Below are positions 739 through 63,245 of a stretch of DNA of 64,000 bases, one piece after another. A program made the translations under genes and the position numbers. Numbering within the stretch: position 1 is the stretch's first letter; every line of letters starts with the position of its first letter. The notes under the pieces are model-generated. The model had not been told where the DNA came from, did no database searches, and saw only the letters and a list, made by a program, of their open reading frames with translations. Source of the stretch: Pegea sp. RAD2-039 (taxonomy: Eukaryota > Chordata > Thaliacea > Salpida > Salpidae); contig JAQGEQ010000338.1 of NCBI GenBank assembly GCA_034620365.1, positions 310,001 through 374,000 on the forward strand. Direction: 5' to 3'.

Positions 739-1005
739 TGGTAGCGTTAAGTGAAAACAAATAAGATTACATACTTCTGTAAAGTAGCATAATGACATCC
801 ACACAACGAAAACAGAAAAAAAGTGCAAATATGCAAATGAATAATTCTACATGTTTTGTTTAAATACAACAGCGTCATTTACAGTTTAACTAGCAAAAGA
901 ATGGCCAACACATGAAAGAAATAAACAAGTCCAAAGCGATCTTTATATCGTTAAATAACGGGGATCTTTTTGTTAAATGCAACTGACAGTATTAGTTTTC
1001 AAAAT
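739..1005. repeat. Family-C dispersed repeat, copy 1
   Basis: Runs from AGTGAAAACAAATAAGATTA through ATGACATC, CACAACGAAAACAG, AACAAGTCC and GGGATCTTTTTGTTAAATGC to a hairpin (981-997). Related copies lie at 2036-2260, 4190-4487, 50960-51226 and 52590-52860. Confidence 0.75.
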
Positions 1006-1107
1006 TGATAAAATTCAATTTATTTATTTATACGAGATATAAATGTAGTTATATGATGTGTATACAAATTACCAAGAAGAACAGCTCTGAAACTTTTTAT
1101 TTGTGAG
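981..1107 (-). other. Candidate PSE-TATA-hairpin module 1 (stem C, weak)
   Basis: Hairpin arms AACTGA/TMAGTT at 981-997 are followed on the plus strand by TTTTCAAAATT. A degenerate TTTGTGAG lies at 1100-1107. A second, plus-oriented C hairpin at 1117-1133, preceded by ATTTTTGA, has no partner motif. Confidence 0.35.
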
Positions 1108-1149
1108 GATATTTTTGAAAACTGACACCATCAGTTGCTATATTCAATT

Positions 1150-1305
1150 GGTCATCGATGTATATTTGATATTTTATGTCGCTAGATATGAATACTATTT
1201 TATTATTTTCCACTCAGCTGTAGGAAATGGCAAAAACTATGGAAGAAATTATTTGTCATTTGGAGGAAAACCTAAAAACAAAAGAAAGTTTGTTCGCAAG
1301 TGCTA
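1150..1305. repeat. Right arm of the foldback
   Basis: Inverted match to 1-155. A 67-codon frame at 1103-1306 covers this arm and ends VRKC-stop; it is a decayed relative of the minus-strand frame at 3-149 and is not called as a gene. Confidence 0.6.
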
Positions 1306-1664
1306 AATCTAAATTCTGCATTAAACACAATTTTTTTCTTGATCAAGTCTTACAATAAATCTACTTCTAGAAATCAAATATTTCAACCAGCATTTTGATC
1401 TCGTTCACAATTTAGTACGAAAATTCTAAGACTTGTTTTCATAAATTTAATTTCTTATATTTTTTGACAAGCACATTAAACAACTTTGACAAGTTTTAAC
1501 TGATTTTGTTAATATTTTTATCCTGTCTTTTTGATTAGATAAAAGTTCTAAGTCTAAAAGATTTCAAAAAAATACTATAACTTGACACCAATTAATATTT
1601 AATGACTGGTAAAGGCTGATAGAACCTTCTAAGAAAAGAATTAAAATATTTAGAAAGTAAAATA
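1306..1664. other. No recognisable feature
   Basis: AT-rich, without ORF or recognised repeat. Confidence 0.5.
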
Positions 1665-1890
1665 GACTTTCATATCTAAAACAGAAATTAGAAATAAATT
1701 TCTCGTAATCTATACAAAGATCTTTGTACAGAGATTTGGTGGAACAGTCTGCTTTAGTTTGTTTGTATACGAGATTTTTTAAATGTCGTTATTTCTTCAA
1801 ATATTTGGGCAAATGCTGTTTTTTGTTGACATTATAAAAAAATATGAAATTTTTGATTAGTTATGTAAATGATAACAAACTTTGACTAAA
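1665..1890 (-). mobile_element. LINE fragment (pre-RT part of ORF2)
   Basis: Matches 55015-55215 of the long LINE in the same orientation. Shared runs include ACAAAGATCTTTGTA, TCTGCTTTAGTTTGTTTGTA and TTTTTTGTTGAC. The equivalent protein region lies between the endonuclease and the reverse transcriptase. The copy has indels and no open frame. Both ends fade into unrelated AT-rich DNA, so it is an old fragment of the same element family. Confidence 0.8.
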
Positions 1891-2035
1891 TAGTATCGAT
1901 GTCTTCGAAGAGTTGAAAACAGGATTCCTGGCAGAACTTGATAGAAACTTGTTTATACCATTATAAATTTCAAAGTAAAAATTCCCTATGCTTAAAGCTT
2001 TAAAACTTTTTTTTTATAAAAATGTTTGATAGGTC

Positions 2036-2260
2036 AAATAAGATTACATACTTCTTTAAAGTAGTATGATGATATCAACACAACGAAAACAGAAAAAAAT
2101 GTGAAAATTTTAAAATGAATCATTCTACATATTTGTTTACTGAAGACAGTGTCACTTAGAGTTTAATTAGCAAAAGAATAACACAACATATGAAAGAATT
2201 AAACAAGTCCACAGCGTTCATTATATCGTTGAAAAAGAGAGATCTTTTTGATTATTTAAG
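2036..2260. repeat. Family-C dispersed repeat, copy 2 (hairpin end lost)
   Basis: Matches 739-970 and 52600-52810 up to GAGATCTTTTTG, after which the usual AACTGACAG hairpin is replaced by unrelated sequence. Confidence 0.7.
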
Positions 2261-2639: not shown

Positions 2640-2658
2640 AGATTTTTTCGTTTAATGC

Positions 2659-2776
2659 AACTGACAGTATCAGTTTTCAAAATTGTCGACTAGTTCATCG
2701 TTAAATCAAAGAATAATTTTGCATATCTTACGAAATTAAATGTTTTATATAACAACACTTTAGCTTTATGTTTGTG
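2659..2776 (-). other. PSE-TATA-hairpin module 2 (stem C)
   Basis: Stem AACTGA/TCAGTT (2659-2675), then TTTTCAAAATT on the plus strand, and GTTTGTG at 2770-2776. On the minus strand TTATATAAA begins about 26 nt after TCACAAAC. Confidence 0.5.
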
Positions 2777-4189
2777 ATTTTAACTAACCGACCTTTTTAA
2801 TGCTTCTTACGCAAATGTTGAAGTATAAATAAGTTTAAAACATCTTAATAGAAGAACGTTTAATCTTTGAAATTAAATAATAAATAATAAAAACAAATGG
2901 TGATACAGTTAGGAGATTGTACACTTTTAAGTTTTGATTATGATTTTTTTAAATTATACTTATTAGTTAGTTCTTAGATACCTGAAAACAATTTAATGTA
3001 TAGCAATTACTTTTCTCATTAGTTTTTATAAAACCAGAATTTTATTTTGTTTAGAAAATATAGGCAACATGTAAAAATCTAAATTCATTTTTATGCAATT
3101 TATTCCGACCACAAACATTAAACTGAATACACCGGATATAACAACCAAATTTTTTTTCTTTCGGTGCAGCTGTCACAATTCGTCCCGATGTAGTCTATAC
3201 TATATTGTTTTTCTTGCTATAAAGTACAGGTTATAACGGGCCAAATATTCACAACATTCAATTGCAAGCATTGTGTAAGCTGTCGGTTTGATTCTCTTAC
3301 AGTCAGATGACCAGCAATTTGTAAGAACATTTGTAAGAGAAAGTTTTAAATAAATAAAATCCTACTTTTTTAAACAAAAAGTTCTTTAGTCCTATAAAAT
3401 AGTACGTAATATTTCAGGATTGAAATAAAAATTTATTTATATTTTTTAAACTTTTAATATTTAAACTTTTTTTCTAATTTATCGTCTACAAAAAGTTTTA
3501 AAATTGCATGGGGAAACTTATTAAAGACATCTAACGCTTACTTGTCTACATTCAGTTTATTAAATCAAATTTACTGTTTGTGAATAAGTTACTCTACTGT
3601 AGATAGCTTGCTTATACTTTTAAATCATGCGGATAAAACATAAGATGAAATTATTTTATTGGAACTAAAAGCATTTAAAAGAATAAGACTTATAAATAAA
3701 TTGTTGAAACTGAAGTTGGATTTATTCTATTGTTACAAGCGAAAGCTGATCATGTTCTCATCTAACTGAATCTATTGGTTTTTATATTTCAAAAACTGTA
3801 TAAGCTATTGAAACAGATTAATTTCATTTATTTAAAAATATAAATTTTTTATAAACTGACATCGTATTATGGTTTTCTAAATGAATAAAGATATTTTAAA
3901 AAATAAATTGTACAACCTTTTAAGCTAAACAAAAAAAAACTTTTTATTTCTAAATGAATAAACGTTTTTCTTCTTTTAATTTAAAAAATCAAATAATTTA
4001 CTTTAGTAGCATTAAGATTAAAAACCTGCAGCTTTATAAACTTGGTTAGTTCAAAATGTAAATTATAATTAAAATAGAATTAAATTTGTTACAGAAACAA
4101 TACTGTATTAAAAAGTTCAAAATGCAAAAAGATGTTATTATTTGAAACGTCGTCTTTTAAACAAAAACAAATGAATTTAATTTCAACAA

Positions 4190-4487
4190 TAATGTTATAA
4201 ACAGATTGTTTATCATAACTGTTATCTTGGTAGGGTTAATTAAAAACAAATAAGAATACGTACTTCTTTAAAGTAAAATGATGACATCAACATAACTAAA
4301 ACAAATAAAATTTGGAAATTTTTAAATGAAACATTCTACATATTTTTTTAAATACGAAAACGTCATTTAAAAGTTTAAAAATGACACAAAATATGAAAGA
4401 ATTACACAAGTCCACAGCGTTCTTTATATCGTTAAACAACGGAGATCTTTTTGTTAAATGCAACTGACAGTATCAGTTTTCAAAATT
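4190..4487. repeat. Family-C dispersed repeat, copy 3
   Basis: Same series of conserved blocks as copy 1, ending in GGAGATCTTTTTGTTAAATGC and the C hairpin. Confidence 0.75.
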
Positions 4488-4580
4488 ATGAAGATTGGAA
4501 TAATTTTACAAAAAAATTAAATGATAATTAGCTGACAAGTTAAAGGCCTTAAATGACAACTTACTTTCTTTGTGTTTGTG
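4462..4580 (-). other. PSE-TATA-hairpin module 3 (stem C)
   Basis: Stem 4462-4478, motif GTTTGTG 4574-4580. On the minus strand TCACAAACACAAAGAAAGTA is followed by CATTTAAGG about 27 nt after the motif start. Confidence 0.5.
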
Positions 4581-4984
4581 AGCTCATTTCAAACACTTTT
4601 TAAATGCTTTTCACAGAAAGGTTAAATTATAAACACGATTAAAACATCTTAACAGATGAATACTTCTTCTTTGAAAATACATGTTTACATTATACGTTTA
4701 AATAAAAACTTTGAAAACAGTAAAAAAATTATTGAAACATTCTACTTTAACCAAATTGCTTTAGATAAATTATTGCTTTAAAATAAGATCCGATATTGGC
4801 AGATAACCTATGAAGGCCAACTACAAATACTCAAAAGAAATGATTTCAAATCTTTTTAATTTTATGCTGAGATAAATTTGTTATTGATTACTATAAGTCT
4901 AATCCATAAAAATGACGTCATCTTATAGATTAACATGTTTTTTTGAATTTTACAAGAAATCGTTTATACTGTGTCAGCTTTCAC

Positions 4985-6590
4985 TATTTATTGTTCTGTT
5001 ACTAACAGTTTTTAAAGTTCAGATGTTTATATTTTAAATCTTTAAGCTTAATAAATCTTCATCTACGATCGTTATAGTAATAGTAAATAATTCACACTCT
5101 AAAATGAATTTTGTATAGCAAAAATAAACAATAAATACTATTTTAAAAAATAAAACACCTTTAAATATAAATTAGATGATGTTTTTCTATTTTTTGAATA
5201 GTTTTATATATTTTGTGCAAGATAAAAAATTTTGGAAAAAGTTTATATCATAACATTTAAAATAATAATCTTAACCTAAAATAGCCTAATTAAATTTGTT
5301 TTTCTACTGTAGATTAAAAAAGGAGTAAAAATTAAAAAATCTTAATTTTTTTGTGTTACAATTATTTGCTAATTTAAAATAATATTTTTAAAATTATTTT
5401 CATTGTTAAGAGCTAATAAGAAAATTTTAAGATTATTATTTATAAAATAAAGATTTCCATTTTATATTCATTCTTAGCAAAGTAATTTTGATAAATTTGA
5501 AAATTAAACTTCTAAATTCACGTTGCTCATCTTCTTATTCTAGTTTGTTTTATAAAATTTGATTTGATTTAGAATTAATTTTATTTTACTTTTAGAGTAG
5601 TTTTGTTCTTTCTAAAACAATTCTAAATTTTGATTTTTTTATGTCATTCACAGATACAATTAATTAATGAAATCAAAGACTGTTGTTGTGAATAATAATG
5701 AAGTTTTGTCTGGATAAGACTATACTTTCAAATAACTAAAGTTAAAGATTATTAATAAATGAAACAGAATCTAGCAAAAGTTAATTTACGATTTACAGAC
5801 TACCATGTTTTTAAATACTTCAATATTTGTAAAGGTTTTATCGACACGTAGTCGACTTCAAATTAAGTTATATAGAATTTTATATTTACACGCAATGTTG
5901 CTAGAATAAAATTAGAATTGCTTATTAAAAAGGATTTTTATTCTAGTGTTTGTGGGTTAAACACTGATTTATCGCTGTTAGAAGAAACCCACTAAGTCAG
6001 GATTAAAATTATTTTTTTTAGGTTAAAAAACAATTAAAAACTCTTTCTCTATGTATTGTATTTCTAAAGATTATCCCAAACTAAAAAGTTTCAAATTTTA
6101 TATTAGCTTTGTCAAAAACACGTACAAATCTCTACAGTGTTTAAAAAATAAATAACACTTATAGAACTTATAAGCTGGTAAATATAAAAATAATCAAAAA
6201 GTTTGTTTTTGTAATCTTATAACTCAATGAAATTTACTTAATTATTGAATCTAATTAAAATCAAAAATATTAAGAATAAATTTATCAAATTTACAGTAGT
6301 AATGTAATAATTATTAATAATAGTTCAACTAAAAATATATTTTCAGAAAACAAATACTCGGAAATAAAAACTTAAAGTTGGTTCAAAAACAAAGCTTCTT
6401 AAAATAAAATTTGCATTTCGATAATTTTATAACAATTATTACTCGGGGTAGACTGTAAAAACTCTTTGTTGAGATTTTCCACTTGAGTGCAGATCAAATT
6501 TGACTTTTTGAAAGTTGTTTCAATTTATTTTTTTCTATCTTAATACATATTTTATTTTTAAACAAATGACATTTTTTTTCTAAGTAAAAT
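4985..6590. repeat. Direct repeat RB, copy 1 (copy 2 at 33410-35030)
   Basis: Colinear with 33410-35030. Shared landmarks include GTTACTAACAGTTTTTAAAG, AATAAATCTTCATCTAC, GACACGTAGTCGACTTC and GTGTTTGTGGGTTAAACACTG. The middle (5640-6130) recurs a third time at 8585-9062. No gene seen. Confidence 0.85.
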
Positions 6591-6902: not shown

Positions 6903-7034
6903 CCACAAACTCTAGATTACCACAAAGTTATAAAGATTGAAAAGTAAAGTAAATTTTCCCATCTCTACTAAATGTCTTTTTAAAACTTTTTAGATAATCA
7001 AATATGAAATTTGGAGTTGGAATACTTTTTCAAC
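6903..7034 (+). other. PSE-TATA-hairpin module 4 (stem B)
   Basis: TTGATCCCACAAACTCTAG, TTATAAA 26 nt after the motif start, then TTTGGA directly before a GTTG.../...CAAC hairpin at 7016-7034. Confidence 0.5.
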
Positions 7035-8584
7035 GAAACTTTTATTTATAAGAAAAATTGAATAACTTAGTTAAGTCACTTAGGTTACTTTTTATACTAA
7101 AAGTCAAGTAGTCTAGGTGAAAAGTTTATTTCATTTTTTTAAAACATTATTGATTAATGTGATATATTGTTTGAAAAACTTTCTAACTTTCAATTAATTG
7201 AATAAAATTATTTACGGCATCACTAAAAACAGCTTTTAATGCAGTTTCATCTAAAATTTAATTTCACAAAAATAAAAATATACAATCTTTAAAATTATAA
7301 CTTTTATGAACATTTTAATTAATAATATTTATCCGAAAAGATATAAAAATGTGTGTTAAAATAGTTATAAGAAAACATAATAGTATTAAATTGTTTAAAC
7401 TAATATTATATTAATAATAAATTGGAAGATGCACATTTGCATCTGTTGATCGAACAAGTATTTTTCCTAGAAAGTAATAATAACTTTTTACATTTCTTGA
7501 ATAAATATTGTAATTTTAATTTTATGACTTCTGTGAAAGTTTTTCAAAATTTAAATTAAAGCCAGATTAAATAAATATTTATTTTTGATTACATAGCAAC
7601 TAATCAGGAACAAATTTATTTGAATTATCTGAACTAACAAAATTTAGCATTCGAGAACTTAGTATTACTTTTACTTTTTATGATTATTCGAAATATATTC
7701 ATTGTACCCTAGTCAAACCCTTTTTACAAATCATTTTGTTTTCAACTCTTTACTTTTTTTTGGATTGAACTGACTGATTGTGGTTCGCTCTTTAAATTCA
7801 TTACAACTTTTTGTAATCGGGCGGACTTCAGTTACCTTGTAGGCCACTGGTAAGTCGCTTGTGATAAGTTACAAGTGACTTTGCTAGTTTCTGAGAAGCA
7901 AATAAACTGAATCATCAAAACCAAATGTTTAGAACATTTAATAATAGTAAGAATAATTCTACTTAAGAATAGTATTACTTAAAATATGTTGATTGGGAAA
8001 ATATATGATAATAATTTTGAAAAAAGGTAGAAAAACTTAATATATTTATTTAAATAAAATTTTATTATTACTCTGATTTAATATTTGCTTCTTATGTTTG
8101 CACTTAGAAAACAGGAAACTAGTTTAGAACCAAGTTTGATTATGATGAAGTTCATTTGAAGTAACGACGTTTCTCTCTAATGAAATTTAAAGATTAGGTG
8201 ATGATGTTAAAAGCGCAAAAATTATAAACAAATTTAAGTAGAAAAATATACCCAAAAAGTTATAAGCTTACTCAGCATCAACAAAACAAAATACGACTTG
8301 AATTTTTACAAAAAATTTGAAAAAATGATTAAATGGTTTAACTATAATAAAACAACCTTTTACCAAGACACGAAGCAAAACTTTCAGTAAAAGTTAAAAA
8401 ATCTCAAATTTATTTAACATATTTTACAATATTAAACAACTTGCTTAATTTTATTTTTATACAGTTAGAATGCTAGTAGTTTTTAAAATATAGCTTCACT
8501 AATTAAATGTAGATAAAAATAAAGGTTATTTTTTTGATAATCACAATAATAAGTAAAATATATTAAAGACGATGTTTCCTTCAC
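7035..8584. other. No gene; isolated hairpins
   Basis: Contains a lone A-type hairpin (7427-7444, preceded by TTGGA) without an upstream CCACAAAC motif. The patch 7130-7260 resembles 33240-33360. The GC-richer hairpin at 7852-7881 is listed separately. Confidence 0.4.
7852..7881. other. Strong isolated hairpin in a GC-richer patch
   Basis: AAGTCGCTTGT and ACAAGTGACTT form an 11 bp stem with a single G-U wobble on one strand and an 8 nt loop. It lies in a GC-richer patch (7818-7900) that I do not see repeated in the window. Confidence 0.45.
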
Positions 8585-9062
8585 AGATACATTTAATTGA
8601 TTAAATCAATTAATTTTGCTGTGTAAAATAATGAAGTTTTGGCTTGATAGAATTACACTTTCAAATAACTAAAGTAAAAGATTATTAAAAAACGAAACAG
8701 AATCTAGCAAAAGTTAATTTACGAATTACAAACTACCATGATTAAAAATACTTTAATATTAGTAAAGGTTACATCGATATTTAGTCGACTTCAAAATAAA
8801 TTCTTCGTAAAAATTGGATTGTAAGCCAATTAGATTTAGTTCTAAAAAATGGCTTAATAAAAGGGATTTTTATTCTAATGTTTGTGGGTTAAACACTGAT
8901 TTATCACCGTAAGGAGAAAAACACTAAACCAGGATTCAAATTGTTTTTGTTTAGGTTAAAAAGACATACAAAACTCTTTCTCTATGTATTGTTTTTATAA
9001 TGACTATCCCAAACTAAAAAGTGTTAAGTTTTATGTTAGTTGTGTCAAAAACTCGTTGAAAT
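8585..9062. repeat. Partial third copy of repeat RB
   Basis: Matches 5640-6130 and 34080-34570, including GTTTGTGGGTTAAACACTG. It stops abruptly at 9062, where the sequence enters the left inverted arm inside a half A hairpin (GCTTTCATCT). Confidence 0.8.
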
Positions 9063-10011
9063 CTCGCTTTCATCTAATTATCAACTATTGTAATTTTCTT
9101 TTAATTAATTTTTTTTATTGCTTGATGTTTACATCTTCCTTGTAGAAGTGTAATTTAAATATTCAAATATTTTTAGTTTTTCAGATCTGAAATAAAAATG
9201 GTTCATAACTTTTTTTGTAAGGTGCGCACAACAACAAATATTTAAACCTTCAATAGTCTTCTGTTAAATTATTTTACAGATTTGTTTAATTTGTAGATTG
9301 GTTTATTTTTACGTTTTCAGGTTACATTTTACCAAAAACTTTAAATACTTTTATCTAAAATCTTCAAAGCATTAGAATAAAGGCAATAGAACGCTAAATG
9401 GCTCCTTGTAAGATGAGCAATTGAAAATGATAATCTAAATTTTTATTTTTTCCTCAAAGTTCTTCTTACAAAGTAAAAATATTTTTCATTAAATTACTAA
9501 CTATAAGATAACTGTCAATATTAATAATTTAAAATAAATTTATAGTTGATATTAGTATAAAATTTATTATTTTTAAATTAGATTGTTAACCTTTAAAAAT
9601 TAAAACGTTTACAATTCTGTAAACAATAAATAATATATGATATTTCATCTTACAAACAAGAATGTTCAAATTTCTTGATATTTGTTTTGATATTTGAAAA
9701 ATTTTTCAAATTTATAGATATTTGTCGATTGATTAGAAATTTTAGAAGATTAAAAAGAGATTTGTCAAACTGATACTGATTGACTTACGTTAAATGATAT
9801 AAAACAAAAAAATATATTGTGCTGATTTATTTTATTTTTTAATCTAAAGTAGAAGTAGAAATACTAATTTTGCTGAAATAAAAGTTTTGTATTTCTAAAC
9901 ATTCTATCACGTTGTCAGTATCGATGTTTACAAGAGCTTTGAACTAAATTATTTTGTTGTTGTTTGTTGTAGAGAATAGAAACTCAAGTTATTCTATTTA
10001 CTTAAAATTTC

Positions 10012-10123
10012 GTTGAAAAGTAATTCAACTCCAAATACCAAAATTTTATAAACACGTTTATAGCGTCTAGTTTCAGTGTACTTTTTATTATTTATAAACT
10101 TTTCTGAAATCTAGTGTTTGTGG
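10012..10123 (-). other. PSE-TATA-hairpin module 5 (stem B)
   Basis: Stem GTTGAA/TTCAAC (10012-10029), TCCAAAT, then GTTTGTGG at 10116-10123. On the minus strand TTATAAA begins 27 nt after the CCACAAAC start. It is the mirror of module 13 in the other arm. Confidence 0.55.
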
Positions 10124-12614: not shown

Positions 12615-14137
12615 ATAAAAAAACATACAAATATATTTAATTGGTTTTTGGACTAGTAATAAAAAGCTAATTTATTGTAAACTGTATAAAGTATTCGAAT
12701 TATCAAAATTAATTTGTGTTTAAATGTCAAAAAATACTTGCTGTATTATTTAAAGTTTATATTACACCATATAAATATCAGTTCGTATGTTATAGATACA
12801 TTTAAACTTAAATGTTTGAAAGTTTTATATTTTTGTAGATTAGCAAATCGCTTTTGATATTTACAACTTAAAATCTAAAGATTGTTTGTTTTATAAATTT
12901 CAGCAAAAAGTTCAATTTTGGTTTTGAAGTGAAAAAAATGAAAATAGTTATTTTACTGATAAATTGATTTAGAACTGTACTAAGAATAATGTTAAAAACA
13001 GCAATATTTTTAATAACTTTATCAATCAATTGATGATGTTGTTAGACTACAGACGTACGTGTTTGTATATTTTATCCATAATAAAAGTTAATTATTGCGT
13101 GGTAAAGATTTCACTTAATTATCAAAATCTCTCTCTCTATATATATATTAATATATGTGTTAATACTTTTTCCTATTTTTTTAACATCTAATATTTGGAA
13201 AAAAATCTTTAAAAATTGTTAGATTTTACTAAATTTTACTAATTTACTTTACACCATACTTGATTTTTTAAAAGAAAACGAAAAGAATTTATTATTGTAT
13301 AAAAAATAATTCAGCTATTAAAAACTGAATTTTAATTAATTCAGAATTAAAATAAATAAGTACATTAAAGCACAGATAGTTAAATCGTTAAAAATAAAAT
13401 TTCAAATTAACCAATTATTTTAAATAACATTGAAGTTTAAATAAACTATAGTTTTCATAATGAAATGAATTTTTAATGATTTCTGCAAATTTTATGTATT
13501 TAATTAACATGTATATCATTGTAACACTTCCTCAATTGGCATTGTCTGAGATTTCAAATGAACTTAAACAATTTGCTTCATTAAAAGTAAAAGAAGTTAA
13601 CATGTTTTGATATTACATGCAGTAATTTTGTACACCGATTACTTTGTACTTTCTTAAAAAATGTTAAACTTTTCTAGCACCAAAAACAACAGACTTTAAA
13701 CATTTTTAAATATTCCGATTTTAATCTATTAGTAATATCTTGCTAACAAGTACCTTCACAATTTATCTAATTTAAAAACGATTGACCAATTTCAAAACAA
13801 ATATAATTGTTTAACAAAAATACTCATTACAAATGCGAAAACGTATTTCTAGTTTTTAAACAGCCAAAAATACTCAGTTAAGAAAATATGGATTAATGAA
13901 CTGAAAAATATTTAAAAGAAATTACAAAGAAAACTGCTAATAGCAAACAGATTTTAACGATTTTAAGCAATTTATAGAAAACGTTCAATCTTGATATTCT
14001 TATGAGAAATAATCTTCGTTTGTGGTAACGATAGATTTTATGTAGAAAAATTGTTGTTCTTAAAAAATGTTGACTTAAATGAATAAATCAATGATTAAAA
14101 AGTAAAAGAAAACTGTAACTAAAAAATTTTGATAATA

Positions 14138-14258
14138 AGATACAAAAGTGCTTCTTCCAAAATAAATCAATAAGAAGACTCTTATTTCATCACTTAAACC
14201 GGCTTTCCCCGCAACCTTTACGGTTATATATTATCTTCATTCAATCTTATGTTTGTGG
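14138..14258 (-). other. PSE-TATA-hairpin module 7 (stem A, decayed stem)
   Basis: Imperfect A stem at 14138-14155, TTCCAAAA, then GTTTGTGG at 14251-14258. On the minus strand TATATAA begins 29 nt after the motif start. It lies about 290 bp from the tandem CGCTA site at 14545. Confidence 0.5.
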
Positions 14259-15023: not shown

Positions 15024-15150
15024 TTCCTTGTAAAGTAAAACTTTGAATTTAACTCCAAATTTACAAACTTTGCAATCCTTTACGAAAGAATGAGCTTTAT
15101 TTTACTTTTCATTTCTTATAAACATTGTTGCAATCTGAAGTGTTTGGGAT
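15024..15150 (-). other. Decayed PSE-TATA-hairpin module 8 (stem B)
   Basis: Degenerate B stem followed by ACTCCAAATT, with TGTTTGGGAT at 15141-15150 instead of GTTTGTGG. Confidence 0.35.
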
Positions 15151-15324
15151 AAGGTTCAAATGAAGATAATTTTATAATTTTATTGATAAGCATTTTGTTG
15201 ACAAAAATTGTTATAATAAAAAATTTGATTTAAAGTTGATAACAAAATTTATTTTAAGTTTACTATCATACAAACCAAATTAGTTTAATTTTTCTTATCC
15301 AGTTGTATTTCATTAAGATAATCA

Positions 15325-15440
15325 AATGCAAAACTGCATCTTCCAAATAAGTATTATTATCCAGACAAGTAATAAAATGAAATAACTTCTTCGCAAGCTT
15401 TACGGTTATATATTATTTTCATTCAATCTTATGTTTGTGG
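15325..15440 (-). other. PSE-TATA-hairpin module 9 (stem A)
   Basis: Stem ATGCA/TGCAT near 15326-15339, CTTCCAAATAA, and GTTTGTGG at 15433-15440. It arose by local duplication of the module at 14138. Confidence 0.5.
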
Positions 15441-15584
15441 TATCAGTAAATTTTTCGATGGCTTTATTCAATCGATAAAGTTATTGTTGATATTAATTTT
15501 ATAAAGATACTGTTATGTATAACTTTAATATCGTGTTTTTAACTAATATAAACTATAATTAACTTGTTTATTATTTAAAGTTTA

Positions 15585-15700
15585 GTTGTAAAGTACTTTA
15601 GCTCCAAATTAAAAAACTTTGCAATCCTTTACGAAATATTGAGTTTTAATTTACTTTTCATTTCTTATAAACGTTGTTGCAATCTGAAGTGTATGAGATC
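15585..15700 (-). other. PSE-TATA-hairpin module 10 (stem B, altered motif)
   Basis: Stem region at 15585-15602, GCTCCAAATT, then GTATGAGATCAAG in the motif position. TTATAA is retained at the usual spacing on the minus strand. Confidence 0.4.
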
Positions 15701-16545
15701 AAGTTCAAATGAAATTAATTTTATAATTTTATTGATAAGCATTTTGTTGACAAAAATTGTTATAATAGAAAATTTGATTTAAAGTTGATAAGAAAATTTA
15801 TTATAAATTTACTATTATACAAACCAAATTGGTCTAATTTTTCTTATCTAGTTGTATTAAATTAAGATTTAAAGTTATTCCTACTTCGATGATTAAAATT
15901 TAAAACCATCAGTCGTGCTGATGATGAAAAATAAAATCAAAAGTCATGTGACTTTTTTTTTAATTGAGAGTACTATAAGACTCAGAGATTATATTCGTTT
16001 GATTTTCAAAATGAATTACAAATTTACAAATCATACAAATCATTAAAGTAATTTATACAGAGAATATCAAAGTATTAGATATTTATTATTAGCCAAAATA
16101 TTCTATTTTCGAAAGAACGCAAACGATAGAAGCAAAAAGTTAAAATTAATGGGTTTTTAACTATATTGAAAGAATTAATTTAACCTGCGTACACTATTCA
16201 TTTTATCAAAATTACATTTGGTTTTAACTATTGAAAAATATATTCTTTAACTGTTAAAATTGATCTTAGTAATTATTAGCTCGAATATTATATATACAAT
16301 TTATATTTGTTAGATTTGTGTTTATAGTTGCTATATTACGATTTATTTATTTACGATTAAAGCGTTTACACTGAACTAGGAACTTTTGTATTCCTCAGAA
16401 TTAATTTACAATTTTAACAAACTTCAGGATATTTAATGGCGAAATTAAATGTAGATTATTTGATGATGAGATTTAAGTAAACTTTATTTGAAAGAAAATA
16501 CAATATCTGTAATTCTTACTTATGAAAAATATTTAGTTGATAAAC

Positions 16546-16657
16546 AGAGGCAAAATTGAACCTTCCAAATTTTGCACTTATAAATGAGTTTGGTATTTCA
16601 GTGAAACAGGGATTTTTCTAAATATTAAATATAAGCTGCATAACCTTATGTTTGTGG
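16546..16657 (-). other. PSE-TATA-hairpin module 11 (stem A, decayed stem)
   Basis: CCTTCCAAATTTTGC follows a broken stem. GTTTGTGG at 16650-16657. On the minus strand TTATATTTAA begins 24 nt after the motif start. Confidence 0.45.
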
Positions 16658-17936: not shown

Positions 17937-18060
17937 GACGCAAACATGCATCATTAAGAATTATGAGCATCTTCCAAAAATATGAGATTTTATTTTGCTT
18001 GTTGCTTCACTCTTCATTTATACACTTATATAATATCAACATAAAATCTGATGTTTGTGG
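17937..18060 (-). other. PSE-TATA-hairpin module 12 (stem A)
   Basis: GACGCAAACATGCATC at 17937-17952, a second GCATCTTCCAAA just after it, and GTTTGTGG at 18053-18060. On the minus strand TTATATAA begins 28 nt after the motif start. Overlapping ORFs on both strands are repeat-borne. Confidence 0.5.
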
Positions 18061-19405: not shown

Positions 19406-19517
19406 CCACAAACACTAGATTTCAGAAAAGTTTATAAATAATAAAAAGTACATTAAAACTTGAAACCATAAGCTTGATTAAATTGTTTCGAAATTTGGAG
19501 TTGAATTAGTTTTCAGC
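19406..19517 (+). other. PSE-TATA-hairpin module 13 (stem B)
   Basis: TTGATCCCACAAACACTAG, TTATAAA 27 nt downstream of the motif start, and TTTGGA before the hairpin at 19500-19517. Mirror of module 5. Confidence 0.5.
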
Positions 19518-20424
19518 GAAATTATAATTAAGTAGAATAACTTGAGTTTCTATTCTCTACAACAAATAACAAAAATGTAATTTATTTCAAGGCTTGTAAA
19601 CATGGTTACTGACAACGCGATAGAATTTTTAGGAATAAAAAACTTTTATTTCAACAAAATTATTATACTACTTATATTCTAGATAAAAAAACTAAAATTA
19701 TTCAGCAAAATATATATATTTTTTTGTTTTATTTTATTTAACGGAAATCAATCAGTATCAGTTAGACAAATCTCTTTTTAATAATCATAAAAGTTCAAAT
19801 CAATCGACAAATATCAAGAAATTTGAACATTTTTGTTTGTAAGATGAAGAATCATATATTATGTTTTCGTTTACAGAATTGTAAACGTTTTAATTATTTA
19901 AGGTTAATAATCTAATTTAAAAATAGTAAATTTTTTACTAATATCAACTATCAATTTCTTTTAAATTATTAACATTGACAGTTATCTTATAGTTGATAAT
20001 TTAATGAAAAATATTTTTTTTTCGAAATAAGAACTTTGAGGAAAAACTAAAACTTTAAATTAGATTATCATTTTCAATTGCTGATCTTACAAGAAACCAA
20101 CTACTAGAGACCTATAGTCCTTATTCTAATGCTTTGAAGATTTTAGATAAAAGCATTTAAAGTTTTTGGTAAAAAGTAACCTGAAAAAGTAAACATGAAC
20201 CAATCTACAAATTATAAATATCTGTAAAATATTTTAACAGAAGACTATTGAAGGTTTAAATATTTGTTGTTGTGCGCACCTTACAAAAAAAGTTATGAAC
20301 CATTTTTATTTCATATCTGAAAAACTAAAAATATTTTAAAATTTAAATTACACTTCTACAAAGAAGATGTAAACATCAAGCAATCAAAAAAATTAGTAAA
20401 AGAAAATTACAATATTTGATAATC

Positions 20425-20542
20425 AGATGCAAAAGTGCATCTTCCAAATAAATAGGTCGATGGAGAATTAGTAACTAAACGTCTTCACTTCCCCGTTAGC
20501 TTTACGGTCTTATATTATCTTCATTCAATCTTATGCTTGTGG
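20425..20542 (-). other. PSE-TATA-hairpin module 14 (stem A, perfect stem)
   Basis: AGATGCA/TGCATCT, a 7 bp perfect stem with a 4 nt loop (20425-20442), then TCCAAATAA. The motif is GCTTGTGG at 20535-20542. It sits at the end of the inverted arm. Confidence 0.55.
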
Positions 20543-20880: not shown

Positions 20881-21340
20881 GTATCTTATAAAAAAAATCT
20901 TTAAAAATATATTATTTTTTTATAATTTTAAAATTTTTTGATATTACTTTCAGCTTACAGAAAATATTATCTAACATATTTTAATATTTTCATTTTTTAT
21001 TAATCTAGAAAAGGTTAGTAATTCATATATTTTCCAATCATAAAAGTTATTTTTACTCTTTGTAAATTAATATATCGAAAGAAAAAATTCACAACTTTTA
21101 AAACTTTAGAAACACAATAATATTTTTTGATATTTCATCTCATGATAGAAAAAACAGAATTGCCGAGCTGATATTTAATGATTTCGATTAAATTATAATA
21201 AAAAGCATAATACTAGTTTTGTTGAATGAAAAGTTTTCAATTACTAAGAAATCTGTCATTTTACCAATAACATATTTACAAACATATTTTGTGATGAATA
21301 ATAACTCAAGTTATTAAACTTATTTATTATTTACAGTTTC

Positions 21341-46789: not shown

Positions 46790-48110
46790 AATCATTGTTA
46801 ATTTAGTTTGTTAAAATGCAGTAAACTATAGGAATATACTTTAGTAAAAAAAATTAATGAAATTGATATTTATGAAAATTAAGCATTTAAAATCAATCTG
46901 TTGTGTCAGTTTAAAAACTTGAGTTTTCTAAATCTTTGACATCAACAGATAGAGAAATTTCTGATGTGTTTGAAAACATTATAATTTAAAATAAAATTTC
47001 TAAGCTGCTTTCCACATTTAAGCCACAAAAATGTTAATATCAATAAAAAAATACAAGTAGCTTCGGAATAGGACATTTAAACTGACGACAAAATTGAAAG
47101 TTTAAACTGCCCACGTCAACATTATTAGTATTTTATTATTTGTTGAAATTTATTCAACTCCAAAATGTTGTTTATTCCTTGAAATATTATATCTGATAAA
47201 AAGTAAATGTTCACTGCTTTAAAAAGTATTTGTAAAGTTGTTTCAGTATAAAGTTTGTGGCGTAGAGAATAAATTTAAATTACAAACATATGGCAATATG
47301 CACGGCATTTTTTATTAATGAAAAAAAATCAAAACAAATTAGTTTTGTTTTTGGTTTGACGCACAAAAATTTTAGTCAAGAAGTATTTAAGAGGCTTCAT
47401 TATTTAAGAAAAAGCCTATGTATTATAAAATATAACTTTTTTTATAGACTTTAACTGAATTATTAAATACAATAAATAAATTTAATTAATTTAGATTAAC
47501 GCACAATTTAATCTAGTAATTTATAGAACTTTTGCTATAATCTCTTCAATTGCATGTATTTTGTTTTTAATAGTTTTGAAGAATCTGAAATACGATATTT
47601 ATATATTATATTTAAATAGAATATTTCAGATTGAATTGCTTATATCTAAAATTTAATAAATGTTTAAAAATTTGTATTTAATTCTAGATTAATCATTTTA
47701 TTTTTGCAAAAACACATCTAACAAAATATACAATTTTTTATTTTTACAAAAACTCGATACTACAATTTTTCAGTAAATTCATTCGACTTTTATTTAAAAT
47801 AAAAGTTATATCTAATATACAAAGTAAACAAAAATAAAATTTATCTTGTGTTTAGTTTCAAATGTAAATTATAAAGAGAATTGAGTTTAATAAAGAAAAA
47901 TGCTATATAACTAAAGTGGTAAATGCAAATAAAATGTTTATGACTTAAATGTCAATGTTCAAACAAAAACAATTGATTCGTTCGCTCCAAATGTATTCAG
48001 GAATGATTGAACTTCTCCTTTTATTATTAAATTTCAAATAATTTTATAAAGTTACAATTTTGAAGGTTAACATCTTGTAGTACTGTGATAAGTAGTATTT
48101 AGTGATTTTT
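46790..48110. repeat. Large direct repeat RH, copy 1 (copy 2 at 61905-63245)
   Basis: Near-identical to 61905-63245 over 1.3 kb; the highest identity pair in the window by eye, hence the youngest duplication. A 46 bp stretch with AGCACTTTGACCTAGCC is present only in copy 2. No coding region. Confidence 0.9.
47142..47260 (-). other. PSE-TATA-hairpin module 24 (stem B)
   Basis: GTTGAAATTTATTCAAC at 47142-47158, TCCAAAATG, and GTTTGTGG at 47253-47260 followed by CGTAGAG. Confidence 0.5.
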
Positions 48111-49399: not shown

Positions 49400-49419
49400 A
49401 AGATCTTTTTGTAAAATGC

Positions 49420-49536
49420 AACTGATGCTATCAGTTTTCAAAATTGCCGGTTTCTACAGCGGCTACCGAAAGGATAATATTGGTATCGTAAGAAATAAAA
49501 TCTTTTTCATAACAACATTTTAGCTTTAAGTTTGTG
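49420..49536 (-). other. PSE-TATA-hairpin module 25 (stem C)
   Basis: AACTGATGCTATCAGTT at 49420-49436: the loop differs from other C copies while the stem is kept. GTTTGTG at 49530-49536. Confidence 0.5.
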
Positions 49537-51199
49537 AGTTCAACTAATGGACTATTTTAATGCTTTTTACGTAAATGTTGATTTATAAATAAGTTTAAAA
49601 TACCTAAATAGAAGAATGTTTTTTCTTTAAAATTAAATAATAATGAAAAATGGTGATAAAGTTAGGAAATTGTAAACTTTTAACTTTAGAATTATGATTT
49701 TTTTTATTTAATTATCCCTATTAGTTAGTTGTTGGATTCCAGAAATTAATTTAATGATTAGTAACTAATTTTCTCTTTGGTTAAGATAAAACCAGAATTC
49801 TATTTTGTTTAGAAAATATAGGCAACATGTAGAAATTTAAAATGACTTTTATGCAATCACTTCCGACCACAAACATTGAAATGAACACACTGGAAACAAA
49901 ATTTTCTTTGAATGCAGTTTGGCACAATTTTTCCAGATACATTCTGTACTATCTTATGTTTGTTGCTACAAAATGCAGATTATGGCGGGCCAAATATTCA
50001 TAACATTCAATTGCAAGCATTGTGTATGCTGTCGGTTTGATTCTCTTACAGTCAGATGACCAGCAATTTGTAAGAACATTTGTCAGAGAAACTTTTAAAT
50101 AAATAAAATCCTACTTTTTTAAACAAAATGTTCTTTAGTCCTATAAAATAGTACGTAATTTTTCAGGATTGAAATAAAAATTTATTTTAACTTTTTTGCA
50201 TTTCCTTAATTTTCTAATTTATCGTCTACAAAAAGTTTGAAAATTTCATGGGGAAACTTGTTAAAGAGATTTAACACTTACTTGTCTACATTCAGTTTAC
50301 TAAATAAAATTTACTATTTGTGAATAAGTTACTCTACTGTAGATAGCTTGCTTATACTTTTAAATCATCAGTTAAAACATAAAAAGAAATTATTTTATTG
50401 GAGCTAAAAGCATTTAAAAGAATAAGATTTATAAATAACTTATCAAAACTGTAGTTGGAATTATTCTATTGTTAGAAACAAAAGCTGATCATGTTCTCAT
50501 CTAACTGAATCTATTGGTTTTTATATTTCAAAAACTGTATAAGCTGTTGAAACAGATTAATTTCATTTATTTAAAAAGATAAATTCTATATAAACTGACA
50601 TCGTATTATGGTTTTCTAAATGAATAAAGATATTTTTATAATAAATTGTACAACCTTTTAAGCTGAATAAGAAAAAAACGTTCAATGTATACGGAAATTA
50701 TTAGGCTTCTTCTTTTAATTTAAGATATTAAATAAAATACTTTAGTATATTTCTTTAATATTAGAAAACTGCCGTTATTTACCCTTGGTTACTTACAAAT
50801 TTTAACTATAAGTAGAAATAAAATTGTTACAAAAACAATACTACGTTAATAAAGTTTTAACTGCAAATAAAATATTTATATTTTTAATGTCGGATTTTAA
50901 ACAAAAGAATTGAATTTATTTTTATTATTACTGTTAAAAAAGATTGTTTATCATAAATATCATTATGATATCACTAAGTGAAAACAAATAAGATTACGTA
51001 CTTCTTTAATGTAGTATAAAAACACAAAAAAACAAAAAAATGGGAAATATATAATTGAATTATTCTACCTAATTATTTACTGAAGTCAGTGGTTATTTAG
51101 AATTCAATAAACGAAAGAATGACACGGGATATGAAAGAAATAAACAAGTCCGCAGCGTTCTTCCTATCGTTAAATAACGGAGATCTTTTTGTTAAATGC

Positions 51200-51314
51200 A
51201 ACTGACAGTATCAGTTTTCAAAGTTATACATCTAAATATATTTTCATATCAATTGTGGTTATCTGGTACCAAATTAAATGCCTTATATGACAACATACTT
51301 TCCTTGTGTTTGTG
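51200..51314 (-). other. PSE-TATA-hairpin module 26 (stem C)
   Basis: Stem 51200-51216, GTTTGTG 51308-51314. The minus strand reads CTCACAAACACAAGGAAAGT and then ATATAAGG 28 nt after the motif start, closely resembling a PSE-TATA pair. Confidence 0.55.
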
Positions 51315-51819
51315 AGCTCATTTCAAACACTTTTTTAATGCTTTTCACACAAATGTTAAACTATAAACATGTTTATGATATCTTAATAGAAGATTGTTTC
51401 TTCTTTGACATTAGATGTTTACGTAATAAATTTGAAAAAAGATAAAAATTTTATTAAACCTTTTTACTTTATTCAAACTGCTTTTGATAAATGATCTTGC
51501 TTCAAAAACAGATCTGCTATTGGCAGATTACCTATGAAGGCCAACTACAAATACTCAAAAGAAATGATTTCAAATCTTTTTAATCTTATGCTGAGCTAAA
51601 TTTGTTATTGATTACTATAAGTCTAATTCATAAAGATGACATTATCAGCCTCTTGTAGATGAACATGTCTTTTTGATTTATACATGAAATCGTTTATACC
51701 GTGTCAGCCTTACTGAGAACCAAATCAAGAATCTTGGATTAAATATTAAATTAAGAGGGTTTAATAACATCTCTACTAACATCTATAAGTAAAGAATATT
51801 TTCTATCATTGATATATCG

Positions 51820-52589: not shown

Positions 52590-52860
52590 GTAGTAGCGTT
52601 AAGTGAAAACAAATAAGATTATGTACTTCTTTAAAGTAGTATGACATCAAAACAACGAAAAAATAAAAAAATGTGGAAATATGTAAATGAATCATTCTAC
52701 ATATTTCTTTACTAAAGACAGTGTCATTTAGAGTTTAATTATCAAAGAATGACACAACACATGAAAGAAAAGAACAAGCTCATCGATTAGTTTTATATCA
52801 TTGAATACAATAAAGCTTTTAGTTAAATGCAACTGACAGTATCAGTTTTCAAATTTCTCA
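52590..52860. repeat. Family-C dispersed repeat, copy 5
   Basis: AGCGTTAAGTGAAAACAAAT to the C hairpin at 52831, as in copies 1 and 3. Confidence 0.75.
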
Positions 52861-52946
52861 GTAATTCACATGCTTATAGTCAAACACTGATAATATCGTA
52901 ATAAATTAGGTGCTTTATATAACAACGTGTTTGCCTTATGTTTGTG
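52831..52946 (-). other. PSE-TATA-hairpin module 27 (stem C)
   Basis: Stem 52831-52847, GTTTGTG 52940-52946. On the minus strand TTATATAAA begins 26 nt after TCACAAAC. Confidence 0.55.
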
Positions 52947-53061
52947 AGCTTATTTAAAATAATTGTTCATGACTTTCACGCAAGTGTTAAATTGTAAATA
53001 TGTTTAAAACCATTTTCACTCCAACTTGATCCCTTAAAAGTAAATATAATGTTTCAGGGAA

Positions 53062-55260: not shown

Positions 55261-55284
55261 AAATCATGGGTGCCAGTGATGTTT

Positions 55285-58490: not shown

Positions 58491-58525
58491 AAATTCACCA
58501 TTTGTAATTTTGTAATAAATTTATT

Positions 58526-59882: not shown

Positions 59883-59925
<43 letters not shown>

Positions 59926-60075
59926 TTCATCTTCATCTTCATCTTCATCTTCATCTTCATCGTCATCTTCATCATCTTCATCTTCATCTTCATATTCATC
60001 TTCATCTTCATCTTCATCATCATCATCATCTTCATCATCTTCATCATCTTCATCATCATCATCATCATCTTCATG

Positions 60076-60110
<35 letters not shown>

Positions 60111-60113
60111 TAC

Positions 60114-60148
<35 letters not shown>

Positions 60149-60300
60149 ATGTGATGATAAAATTCATTACTACATTACGATAGTAAAAATAACGTCATCA
60201 GTTCATCTTCATAAAACATTTGAAGTGATGATAGCACTAATGACGTCACTATTAACTAGTCATATGTGTATGAATTTACTTTTAAGACTAATCTAAGTTG
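59040..60300. other. TGACGTCA cluster with GATGA-rich sequence
   Basis: Perfect TGACGTCA palindromes at 59248, 59349, 59448, 59492, 59589, 59670, 59835 and 60241, plus near matches (TGATGTCA, TGACATCA, TAACGTCA, TACGTCA). TGACGTCA is the CREB/ATF site. The surrounding DNA is GATGA-rich and less AT-rich than the rest of the window, and has no ORF. Confidence 0.6.
59839..60148 (+). repeat. ATC / TTCATC microsatellite
   Basis: About 310 bp of (TCA)n interspersed with (TTCATC)n blocks and a few interruptions. It starts directly in the TCATCATC tail of a TGACGTCA site. It creates spurious long poly-Ser, poly-Ile and poly-Met frames. Confidence 0.95.
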
Positions 60301-60560
60301 TCTACGTCATCATCATAATCCAAACTTTAACTGAAAAAATTCAAAGTTTAAAGCATTTTAACAATCTCTTGTAGTAGTTGATAATTGTGTTCAAGAAAAA
60401 AGTTATTAAAAACATTATATGTTTTAAACTCGTTTAAATAAAAACTTGCTATTTCACTTTTGTTCTCATTTTAATGAATTTAAATTTAAACCATTTTTTT
60501 TTGAAATTTATTCTATTGTGAATATTTTCATGTAAATGGCTAACTAATTTTTTGTGCTTT
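60288..60560. repeat. Inverted match to 35030-35350
   Basis: TTTTAACAATCTCTTGTAGT and the following 200 bp are reverse-complementary to 35150-35290. Confidence 0.75.
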
Positions 60561-61904
60561 TAAATCATTTTATCTAAAAACATATCATAATTAGAACATA
60601 CCAGAAATATTGTAGCAAAATACCTTAAGACAAACTTATTTTTATGTTTTTAAACATTATATTTGATTTTAAATACTTTAGAATCAAAAAGAATAAATTT
60701 CTGTTTGTAAAACAGTTTGACACATTGCCCATAATATTTAAGAAAAGCCTTCTATAAACAAACAAGGAACAGAAATTTATAATAACAACAGAAGTTTAAT
60801 GTTAATTTCTGCTGAATTAAGCAGCTTGTTGATTATTGTTGTTTTCAAAAAGCAAATGAATATTGATTAAGTCAATATTTCTCGGTAGTGTTTATAATAA
60901 ATTTCTAAAGGAAATTTGCTTGTAGTGAGATAAGGGACGAGAAAATTATATGTCATATATGACGTGGTTCTGTGTCACCAGCAAAGCTAATCTTGTATAC
61001 TCCAAAACAAAATTATTCATTTTTTAATGCTAAGAACAGAACAATTTAATCTTAACTGACAGATACTCTTAAAAAGCTGTAATTTATACAACAAATTATC
61101 TTTTGAATGCTATTTGTTTGTTTTAGTAAATTTATTTGCTTGCAGTCTGTGTTATAAGCTTCAAGTAATGTTGATATTTCATATTTAAACATTTAAAAGA
61201 AATTGAATTGCCTGTCATATACTTAAACACAACTAAGGTTGCCAATTAAAAATCAGTTTGTTGTATCATGTTATCACGCTGTGTTACTAATCAACAATGT
61301 TTAGCTATAAATAAGCAGCTGTTGTAATAAGAATTTAGTTTACTTTTGCGCTAAAACAAATAAGTTTATTAAAAGTGTTTATTTAGTTTATTTAAAAGTG
61401 ATAAATATATTCTAAGAGAAATCAGAAACAAACCAAAAATGAATTTGTAATTGTTTTTCTCTCTTGTAATCCAAAGTTCAAATAGAAATAAAAAATTTCT
61501 TGTAAAATAAAACTAAATAATTAACTAATAATAATCAAATTTATATTTGTTTTTATGCTATTAAGTAACTTAAAAAAATCCAAACATATTTAACCGTTAG
61601 ATTTCTGATTTTCCAATAAATCTCTGTTTGATTATTTTATGTAAAGTTTTATAACTCAACAAGAAATAATTGTTTTTTGAAGATTTATGAATAAACAAAA
61701 AATATTTACAAAGCGACATTAAGCATAAATCATGTTTTTTAAATACTATTACTCCTGCGGTATAAATAACTTCAAGTATACATTTCTGTAATTAAATTAT
61801 TTGTTTCAAGTAATTCTTCTTTAGATGCAAAACTGAAATTTCTAACAATTCTGAAAAATGAATTCATTAAAGAAGAACGTTTGCAGTGTGGCATAAAAGT
61901 TGAT
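60561..61904. other. No gene recognised
   Basis: AT-rich, with no ORF or assigned repeat. Confidence 0.45.
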
Positions 61905-63245
61905 ATAGTTAATTTATAATTGTTAATTTAGTTTGTTAAAATGCAGTAAACTATAGGAATTTACTTTAGTAAAAAAAATTAATGAAATTGATATTTATGA
62001 AAATTAAGCATTTAAAATCAATCTGTTGTGTCAGTTTAAAAACCTGAGTTTTCTAGATCTTTGATATCAACAAATAGAGAAATTTCTGATGGGTTTGAAA
62101 ACATTATAATTTAAAATAAAATTTCTAAGCTGCTTTCCACATTTAAGCCACAAAAATGTTAATATCAATAAAAAAATACAAGTAGCTTCGGAATAGGACA
62201 TTTAAACTGACGACAAAATTGAAAGTTTAAACTGCCCACGTCAACATTATTAGTATTTTATTATTTGTTGAAATTTATTCAACTCCAAAATATTGTTTAT
62301 TCCTTGAAATATTATATCTGATAAAAAGTAAATGTTCACTGCTTTAAAAAGTATTTGTAAAGTTGTTTCAGTATAAAGTTTGTGGCGTAGAGAATAAATT
62401 TAAATTACAAACATATGGCAATATGCCCGGCATTTTTTATTAATGAAAAAAAATCAAAACAAATTAGTTTTGATTTTGGTTTGACGCAAAAAAATTTTAG
62501 TTAATAAGTATTTAAGAGGCTTCATTATTTAAGAAAAATAGATCTATCCGAAGCACTTTGACCTAGCCTATTTATTATGAAAAATAACTTTTTTTATACA
62601 ATTTAACTGATTTATTAAATACATTAATTTAGATTAATTAATTTAGATTAACGCACAATTTAATCTAGTGATTTATAGAAATTTTGCTATAATCTCTTCA
62701 ATTGCATGTATTTTGTTTTTAATAGTTTTGAAGAATCTGCAATACGATATTTATATATTATATTTAAATAGAATATTTCAGATTGAATTGGCTATATATC
62801 TAAAATTTAATAAATGTTTAAAAATTTATATTTAATTCTAGATTAATCATTTTATTTTTGCAAAAACACATCTAACAAAATATACAATTTTTTATTTTTA
62901 CAAAAACTCGATACTACAATTTTTCAGTAAATTCATTCGACTTTTATTTAAAATAAAAGTTATATCTAATATTCAAATTAAACAAAAATAAAATTTATCT
63001 TGTGTTTAGTTTCAAATGTAAATGTAAATATAAATAGAATTGAGATTAATAAAGAAAAATGCTATATAACTAAAGTGATAAATGCAAATAAAATGTTTAT
63101 GACTTAAATGTCAATGTTCAAACAAAAACAATTGATTCGTTCGCTCCAAATGTATTCAGGAATGATTGAACTTCTCCTTTTATTTCAAATAATTTTATAA
63201 AGTTACAATTTTGCAGGTTAAAATCTTGTAGTACTGTGATAAGTA
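61905..63245. repeat. Large direct repeat RH, copy 2
   Basis: Matches 46790-48110. Starts at TTAATTTATAATTGTTAATTT and ends near GTAGTACTGTGATAAGTAGT. Confidence 0.9.
62267..62385 (-). other. PSE-TATA-hairpin module 28 (stem B)
   Basis: Same as module 24: stem 62267-62283, GTTTGTGG 62378-62385. Confidence 0.5.

Follow-up and report, generated by a model that had tools for sequence, protein, structure and literature searches.

Putative Sm-class small RNA genes with snRNA-type promoters and type-specific bodies arrayed in a 64,000-nucleotide window

The DNA analysed here is a stretch of 64,000 nucleotides from contig C286, positions 310001-374000 (hereafter, the window); the assembly has 387 contigs and totals 105.7 Mb. 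By base counts the window is 76% A+T, and it carries an array of short units on both strands. A unit was defined as a box resembling the proximal sequence element (PSE) of small nuclear RNA (snRNA) genes, followed by a TATA-like box and then by the Sm-like site ATTT(T)G(R)A, exact or nearly so, beside a hairpin-like tail; in the window units, the Sm-like site lies 79-106 nt from the start of the PSE-like box. The exact box YCACAAAC has 32 matches on the two window strands, of which 22 (18 on the minus strand and four on the plus strand) are units, and eight more units with diverged boxes were recovered by similarity searches. The first-pass annotation of this sequence had claimed at least 28 units of motif, TATA-like box and hairpin on both strands; the count is 30, in eight subfamilies (A1, four units; A2, three; A3, one; B1, six; B2, four; C, six; D, three; E, three), with families and body types sorted by hand. 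Among the ten remaining YCACAAAC matches, three (40718, 40802 and 40886) lie in a C2H2 zinc-finger repeat, and those at 3109, 49867, 28560, 14025, 3583, 59253 and 59478 were excluded because they have no Sm-plus-hairpin tail at the proper distance.

The units are cited below by strand and by the coordinate of their promoter end. Family C comprises units at 977..1106 (weak promoter box TCACAAAT, tail sequence intact), 2655..2777 (PSE, TATA, body, Sm-like site and hairpin), 4458..4581, 49416..49537, 51195..51315 and 52826..52947, all on the minus strand; the body of the third differs from that of -51315 despite flanks that are 0.84-0.85 identical. The family D units, at 5835..5955, 8769..8887 and 34270..34390, are also on the minus strand. 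Family B1 is represented on the plus strand at 6903..7037 (a long body), 19406..19521 (body type alpha), 24648..24769 (box CCACAAAG) and 26634..26747 (without a perfect stem), and on the minus strand at 10008..10123 (body type beta) and 25464..25578. All four B2 units are on the minus strand and have diverged boxes; the one at 15032..15149 has an altered tail, and those at 15581..15696, 21337..21452 and 29556..29671 are without a perfect stem. The A families are likewise confined to the minus strand: A1 at 14135..14258 (imperfect hairpin), 15320..15440 (body type i), 20421..20542 (box CCACAAGC) and 28670..28793 (a near-copy of -14258 with a damaged box); A2 at 16542..16657 (hairpin decayed), 23046..23164 (carrying the conserved A2 body) and 30520..30637; and A3 at 17953..18060 (without a perfect stem). 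Family E has one plus-strand unit at 36819..36936 and two near-identical minus-strand units at 47138..47260 and 62263..62385.

Segmental duplications in both orientations make up much of the window. They include a direct duplication of 12184-14360 and 26727-28895 (about 93-98% identical), an inverted duplication of 9095-11829 and 17123-20406 (pieces 79-94% identical) and a direct duplication of 46791-47368 and 61916-62493 (pieces 94-98% identical), with units in each copy.

The box of the units was compared with the promoters of canonical snRNA genes. The genome contains 19 matches to U2, 19 to U1, 15 to U5 and 15 to U6, not all above the family cut-offs, and the ten best of each were examined (n = 40). 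The unit-type box is present in all 40 genes and starts 56 nt before the RNA in U1, 57 nt (56 nt in one gene) in U2, 54-55 nt in U5 and 62-63 nt in U6. Because these genes all have the box at a set distance upstream of the RNA start, the unit box is the PSE of this genome, as the earlier annotation had suggested in calling it PSE-like. With a PSE matrix built from the canonical genes only, units ranked 1st (-10123), 2nd (+19406), 5th (-5955), 6th, 10th and 11th among window positions on both strands, and the family C unit -2777 ranked 13th; 19 units fell within the top 34 positions and 24 of the 30 within the top 74. High-ranking positions outside units were 3109, -6692, 28215, 13680 and the zinc-finger repeat. 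Most unit boxes have AGATT where the canonical genes have AAACTT, a difference that makes them look like a sub-class.

By one scoring rule applied to all, the distance from PSE start to TATA start is 25-29 nt in U1, U2 and U5 genes and 31-33 nt in U6 genes. Among 55 distinct units from the window and the genome, 53 have a distance of 24-28 nt and two are outliers, at 21 and 38 nt; this bears out the spacing of 24-29 nt proposed initially. Runs of four T occur within the predicted RNA of 35 of these 55 units; such runs would stop RNA polymerase III (Pol III). Together, the U1/U2/U5-like TATA spacing and the internal four-T runs point to RNA polymerase II (Pol II), and by the start rule of U1, U2 and U5, the unit RNA is predicted to begin near PSE+55.

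The other end of the unit was examined in 78 units, of which 48 came from elsewhere in the genome (40 fetched stretches and eight loci from the pattern searches described below); in these 48, the PSE and Sm columns are alike partly through the search pattern, and the body is free of that selection. A perfect stem of 5-8 pairs adjoins the Sm-like site in 71 of the 78 units, compared with 31% of 4000 random places in the window. Different families have different stems (AGATGCA/TGCATCT, GTTGAA/TTCAAC, AACTGAT/GTCAGTT, ACTTGC/GCAAGT and GACTGAA/TTCAGTC), with the pairing retained, in agreement with the earlier claim of an Sm-like site plus a terminal stem-loop. The seven units without a perfect stem of five pairs indicate that some copies have decayed, and the description of the array as short RNA genes, or decayed copies of such genes, with conserved ends and variable bodies is supported.

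The unit array in the window is real. With the PSE model from canonical snRNA genes, PSE, Sm-like site and stem occur jointly at 20 places in the window, compared with 0-2 in 15 first-order Markov sequences; the PSE model alone finds 25 window sites of at least 12 bits, compared with 0-7 in 20 such sequences. Across the genome, two exact unit patterns gave 155 and 171 matches, compared with five and nine for the reversed-pattern controls; a few places are in both lists, and these counts are lower bounds. PSE plus TATA alone gave 976 matches against 151 for the control, with overlapping TATA variants counted repeatedly. The first 100 places of each pattern cluster on contigs such as C64, C92, C104, C134, C136, C188, C225, C261 and C267. 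In a collection of viral contigs, the family C tail and a unit pattern both had zero matches, and a looser unit pattern had four matches in prokaryote contigs and four in viral contigs, none of them unit-like by eye; three of the viral matches (L006, L007 and L008) have identical sequence around a single chance match to the pattern. Taken together, the sequence features support the earlier interpretation of the units as putative small RNA genes in which a PSE and TATA box precede an Sm-like site and a hairpin.

The body of the unit, which runs from the predicted RNA start to the Sm site, is 23-51 nt long (median 37). Bodies were compared in 107 pairs with promoter identity of at least 0.75 and at least one flank at 0.75 or above (in the window comparison, pairs with neither 80-nt flank at 0.75 were dropped). 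Body identity is 0.65 or less in 66 of these pairs and 0.9 or more in 20. Among 18 groups made by hand, C92c has no pair with a flank at 0.8, so that 17 groups were used; L058, which joins a B1 promoter to a different downstream sequence (tail 0.53-0.56), is counted among the 78 units and stands outside the groups. Mean identity over the 17 groups, in bins, is 0.85-0.96 in the 100-nt flanks on each side, 0.97 in the first nine bases of the PSE, 0.69-0.78 in the body and 0.98 in the Sm-like site. In 15 of the 17 groups, identity is lower in the body than in the flanks, and in 13 the gap is at least 0.10. For instance, units -62385 and +36819 have flanks 0.89 and 0.79 identical and a body identity of 0.47, and units -8887 and -5955 have flanks at 0.83 and 0.86 and a body at 0.46, no better than shuffled letters; a near-random body is possible even between paralogues with 96% identical flanks. 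The body is kept in the pairs -47260/-62385 and -14258/-28793.

With 40 further stretches added, the bodies sort into discrete types, each of which can occur in several copies. B1, with 13 copies, has three types: upstream divergence per site is 0.034 between and 0.030 within them, whereas body divergence is 0.395 between and 0.066 within; within-type downstream divergence is 0.134. In A2 (22 copies, three from the window and 19 of the 25 exact matches elsewhere), the body diverges by 0.038, compared with 0.259 in the upstream and 0.118 in the downstream sequence. Conservation sets in within the bin PSE+50..59, at the RNA start given by the canonical rule. Low diversity in A2 reaches beyond the exact 24-mer within the body by which the set was picked, to about PSE+140, and this 24-mer is present in eight of 11 A2 rows picked by promoter and Sm site only. 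Within the A1 types (18 copies), the body diverges by 0.061 and the flanks by 0.089 and 0.131. The A2 and B1 patterns make simple decay an insufficient explanation. The first-pass annotation offered the ends of an old repeat family as an alternative; this agrees poorly with the predicted RNA being the best-conserved part of the A2 locus and with B1 body types that are distinct despite alike flanks. Distinct bodies between alike flanks would fit gene conversion, or exchange of ends, combined with selection for body difference; bursts of body change after duplication would be equally compatible with them. On either account, the body would carry information.

Our preferred explanation, which we consider probable, is that the units are Sm-class small RNA genes driven by Pol II and the snRNA-activating protein complex (SNAPc), with type-specific 5' bodies. 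An intact unit would be transcribed by Pol II from a SNAPc-type promoter consisting of PSE and TATA, as are U1, U2 and U5, and its RNA would begin near PSE+55. The resulting RNA of roughly 55-80 nt would have a mostly unstructured 5' body, the Sm-like site AUUU(U)G(R)A, to which an Sm ring would bind, and a 3' hairpin. The promoter and the Sm/hairpin end would form a standard module, and the body would be the part that differs. In the simplest model, a birth-and-death gene family, the units would undergo duplication and gene conversion that homogenise promoter and tail, while selection would keep the bodies distinct because the body gives each ribonucleoprotein (RNP) its specificity, most likely through base pairing. 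A bolder version, in which an animal has a modular guide-RNA system of hundreds of Sm-class RNAs that share a single promoter and RNP-assembly module and carry specificity bodies of 25-50 nt, exchanged or diversified under selection, whose base pairing serves defence or gene control, seems to us doubtful.

Several observations count against the reality of the array or against this explanation. Six of the 30 units, including all four of B2, rank just 183-873 by the canonical PSE matrix, several of the 71 stems are weak, with five pairs each, and unit copies are not independent because of the segmental duplications. A 3' box is just hinted at: a relaxed consensus is found in 14 of the 78 units, compared with 4.9 in mononucleotide shuffles, and here too the copies are not independent (by eye, the canonical snRNA genes have no clear common 3' box either). 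The body shows no excess divergence over flanks in two of the 17 groups (B3 and B4) and an excess of just 0.05-0.07 in B2 and C92b; the conservation of A2 is inflated by the selection of its set through an exact 24-mer within the body; and A1 shows no decoupling of body and flanks, as its flanks too differ between types (0.312 and 0.524).

The searches for pairing partners were also negative. The genome-wide complement search covered one body type, A2, and with up to three mismatches the antisense of this body had nothing beyond the control level outside near-copies. The search with the A2 body at the same threshold gave 35 matches, compared with two in the control; 34 had at most two mismatches, and the single three-mismatch place, on C58, is at control level (the sequence was inspected at 19 places outside the window). 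All distinct bodies compared with 230 kb of sequence gave nothing above control, and matches to self and family dominated. The best match outside the families, a 20-nt one involving a C188 body and lying in the vicinity of a U1 gene (L036), was taken as chance, with no PSE beside it in the stretch read. There was no excess pairing with U1, U2, U5 or U6 (0, 4, 3 and 0 of 55 bodies at p<0.05). Conserved columns were absent from the bodies (at most about 0.3 bits per column), and a 5' hairpin suspected by eye did not hold, with 10 of 76 bodies folding better than 95% of their shuffles against about four expected.

Other explanations were weighed against the same data. The units could be spliced-leader (SL) RNA genes with hypervariable leaders, the body being a short leader exon plus a 5' splice site and the Sm site and hairpin belonging to the SL intron part. 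Multiple copies are common among SL RNAs, which contain an Sm site and hairpins. Hypervariable SLs are described in cyst nematodes (PMC6362198). This reading requires a splice site, whereas GT, GTA, GTR and GGT are not notably enriched over shuffles in the 55 distinct bodies; measured from either the predicted start or the Sm site, there is no set position at which any of the four is more frequent than in 95% of the shuffles. We regard this reading as improbable.

Promoters of the snRNA type could instead have been co-opted, as in nematodes, for precursors of small RNAs resembling PIWI-interacting RNAs (piRNAs), each body encoding a different small RNA. The promoter type, the clustering and the variable transcribed part would all agree with this, and nematodes provide a precedent (PMC6436959). 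For this DNA the nematode comparison is no more than an analogy; the nematode TTR-like family was not found, in a search that had no matches anywhere and whose negative does not show absence. The units retain an Sm-like site and a compensated 3' hairpin, and piRNA precursors are not known to need either. The piRNA-like interpretation has, in our estimate, little chance of being right.

A similarly small chance is given to the proposal that segmental duplication has scattered one or a few snRNA-like genes, that most of the paralogues are dead and that their bodies vary only for lack of constraint. Several window copies do have damaged boxes or stems, and body and flanks are alike in some groups. 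Unconstrained bodies would be expected to diverge like their flanks, yet they are less alike by the stated margin in the 13 groups above, and they are conserved within types. Finally, mutation could be locally elevated in the transcribed part, changing the bodies fast with no selection. The span of the variable stretch in most groups, from the predicted RNA start region to the Sm site, would agree with such a hotspot, yet it is very improbable, and steady hypermutation was dropped, because the within-type bodies of B1, A1 and A2 are not clearly more variable than the upstream and downstream sequences.

Other PSE-like boxes are present in the window. Those at 3109 (+), which ranks 3rd by the canonical model, and 49867 (+) have similar surroundings and no Sm/hairpin tail at unit spacing, and perhaps belong to another kind of PSE gene. 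Diverged boxes at -6692, +13680, +28215 and +25834 resemble CCACAAACAACAGACTTT, which is intact in the units C64:23794 and C104:20332, and are likely decayed copies of a further family. Sites similar to TGACGTCA, resembling the cyclic-AMP response element (CRE), lie a few bases before the PSE of many U1 and U5 genes (for example, in L029, L031, L037 and L043), and none were seen by eye ahead of the window units; these CRE-like sites are a candidate distal or activator element. Three U1-like genes, at L027 958 (+), L029 2667 (+) and L034 ~2006 (-), have the same PSE and the 5' end AAACTTACTTGG in place of ATACTTACCTG, near ordinary U1 genes on C39 and C40; possibly, these are variant U1 genes with altered pairing to the 5' splice site.

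The remaining features of the window are of different kinds. The C2H2 zinc-finger coding repeat spans 40461-41277 on the minus strand with an 84-nt period, and three chance CCACAAAC matches lie inside it. A reverse transcriptase is encoded by an open frame with an RVT_1 domain at 53227-54786, with more frames upstream, in an element at 53227-56627 (-) that is richer in G+C (up to 0.37) and that we read as a retrotransposon of the non-long-terminal-repeat type; a search outside the genome found no confirmed relatives of its reverse transcriptase protein. The zinc-finger repeat and the reverse transcriptase together suggest an animal host. COX1 gave no match, and the arthropod cuticle family was not found either, a negative that, like the one for the nematode TTR-like family, does not show absence. 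A TCATCA repeat of about 51 units occupies 59840-60148, with TGACGTCA-like sites at 59.2-59.6 kb. Rfam had no matches over the window at the gathering threshold, and the five snoRNA-like (small nucleolar RNA) Rfam matches, with E values of 0.5-4.5, are all inside the GAT repeat; ARAGORN, run with the bacterial code, found no transfer RNA in the window.

The results suggest a family of uncharacterised small RNAs. If this is true, hundreds of candidate loci that combine a standard promoter and RNP end with a type-specific body would represent an unusual route to many nuclear RNAs; by comparison, 11 Sm-class snRNA species are reported in Drosophila (PMC4053861). How new RNA classes come to use snRNA promoters, which has so far been asked mainly for nematode piRNAs, would also become testable. 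No report of a comparable animal RNA family was found in the open-licence literature; a description in other literature is possible.

Among known systems, the Sm-class snRNA genes U1, U2 and U5 of the same genome share with the units the PSE, the TATA spacing, the start distance, an Sm-like site and a 3' hairpin; the units differ in their hundreds of pattern matches, their many body types and the lack of any Rfam family match in the window. The predicted unit RNA is close in length to U7 (62 positions in the Rfam model). Identity with U7 was rejected: the 16 genome matches to the Rfam model have E values of 0.4-9.9, none is above the cut-off or at a listed unit, and prokaryote controls match at the same level. 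The Drosophila LU snRNA is likewise a lineage-specific Sm-class snRNA with a PSE promoter, which its authors suggest arose perhaps by duplication and rapid divergence of U5; it is a single 116-nt RNA, in contrast to the large unit family with many body types (PMC4053861). SmY RNAs are also a small Sm-class noncoding RNA family, with twelve members in C. elegans (PMC11229312). In SmY, a stem-loop stands on either side of the Sm site and the loop of the first is conserved, whereas the unit 5' body is mostly unstructured and variable; identity with SmY was rejected in view of the missing conserved 5' stem-loop, the slight folding excess of the bodies and their lack of conserved columns. Hypervariable SL RNAs (PMC6362198) have a variable 5' part, an Sm site and a hairpin in common with the units, which are without a positioned 5' splice site by the four motifs sought in the 55 distinct bodies.

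The dictyostelid Class I RNAs (PMC7919456) are products of many genes, about 60 nt long, with a promoter element shared with snRNA genes about 60 nt upstream, a variable part and a stem maintained by compensatory changes, and Pol III is suggested for their transcription. The units are similarly multigene, short and variable, with an snRNA-type promoter element and a compensated stem; they differ in that this stem is a local 3' hairpin after the Sm-like site. Identity with Class I, which has an 11-nt common motif beside an end-joining stem, was rejected on the position of the stem and the low information of the body columns. Nematode piRNA (21U) loci (PMC6436959) have an snRNA-derived upstream motif, Pol II transcription and many short variable RNAs, like those predicted here; their primary transcript is about 28 nt, whereas the units retain the Sm-like site and the 3' hairpin. 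In their logic, the nematode piRNA loci and the dictyostelid Class I RNAs are the nearest analogues of the units.

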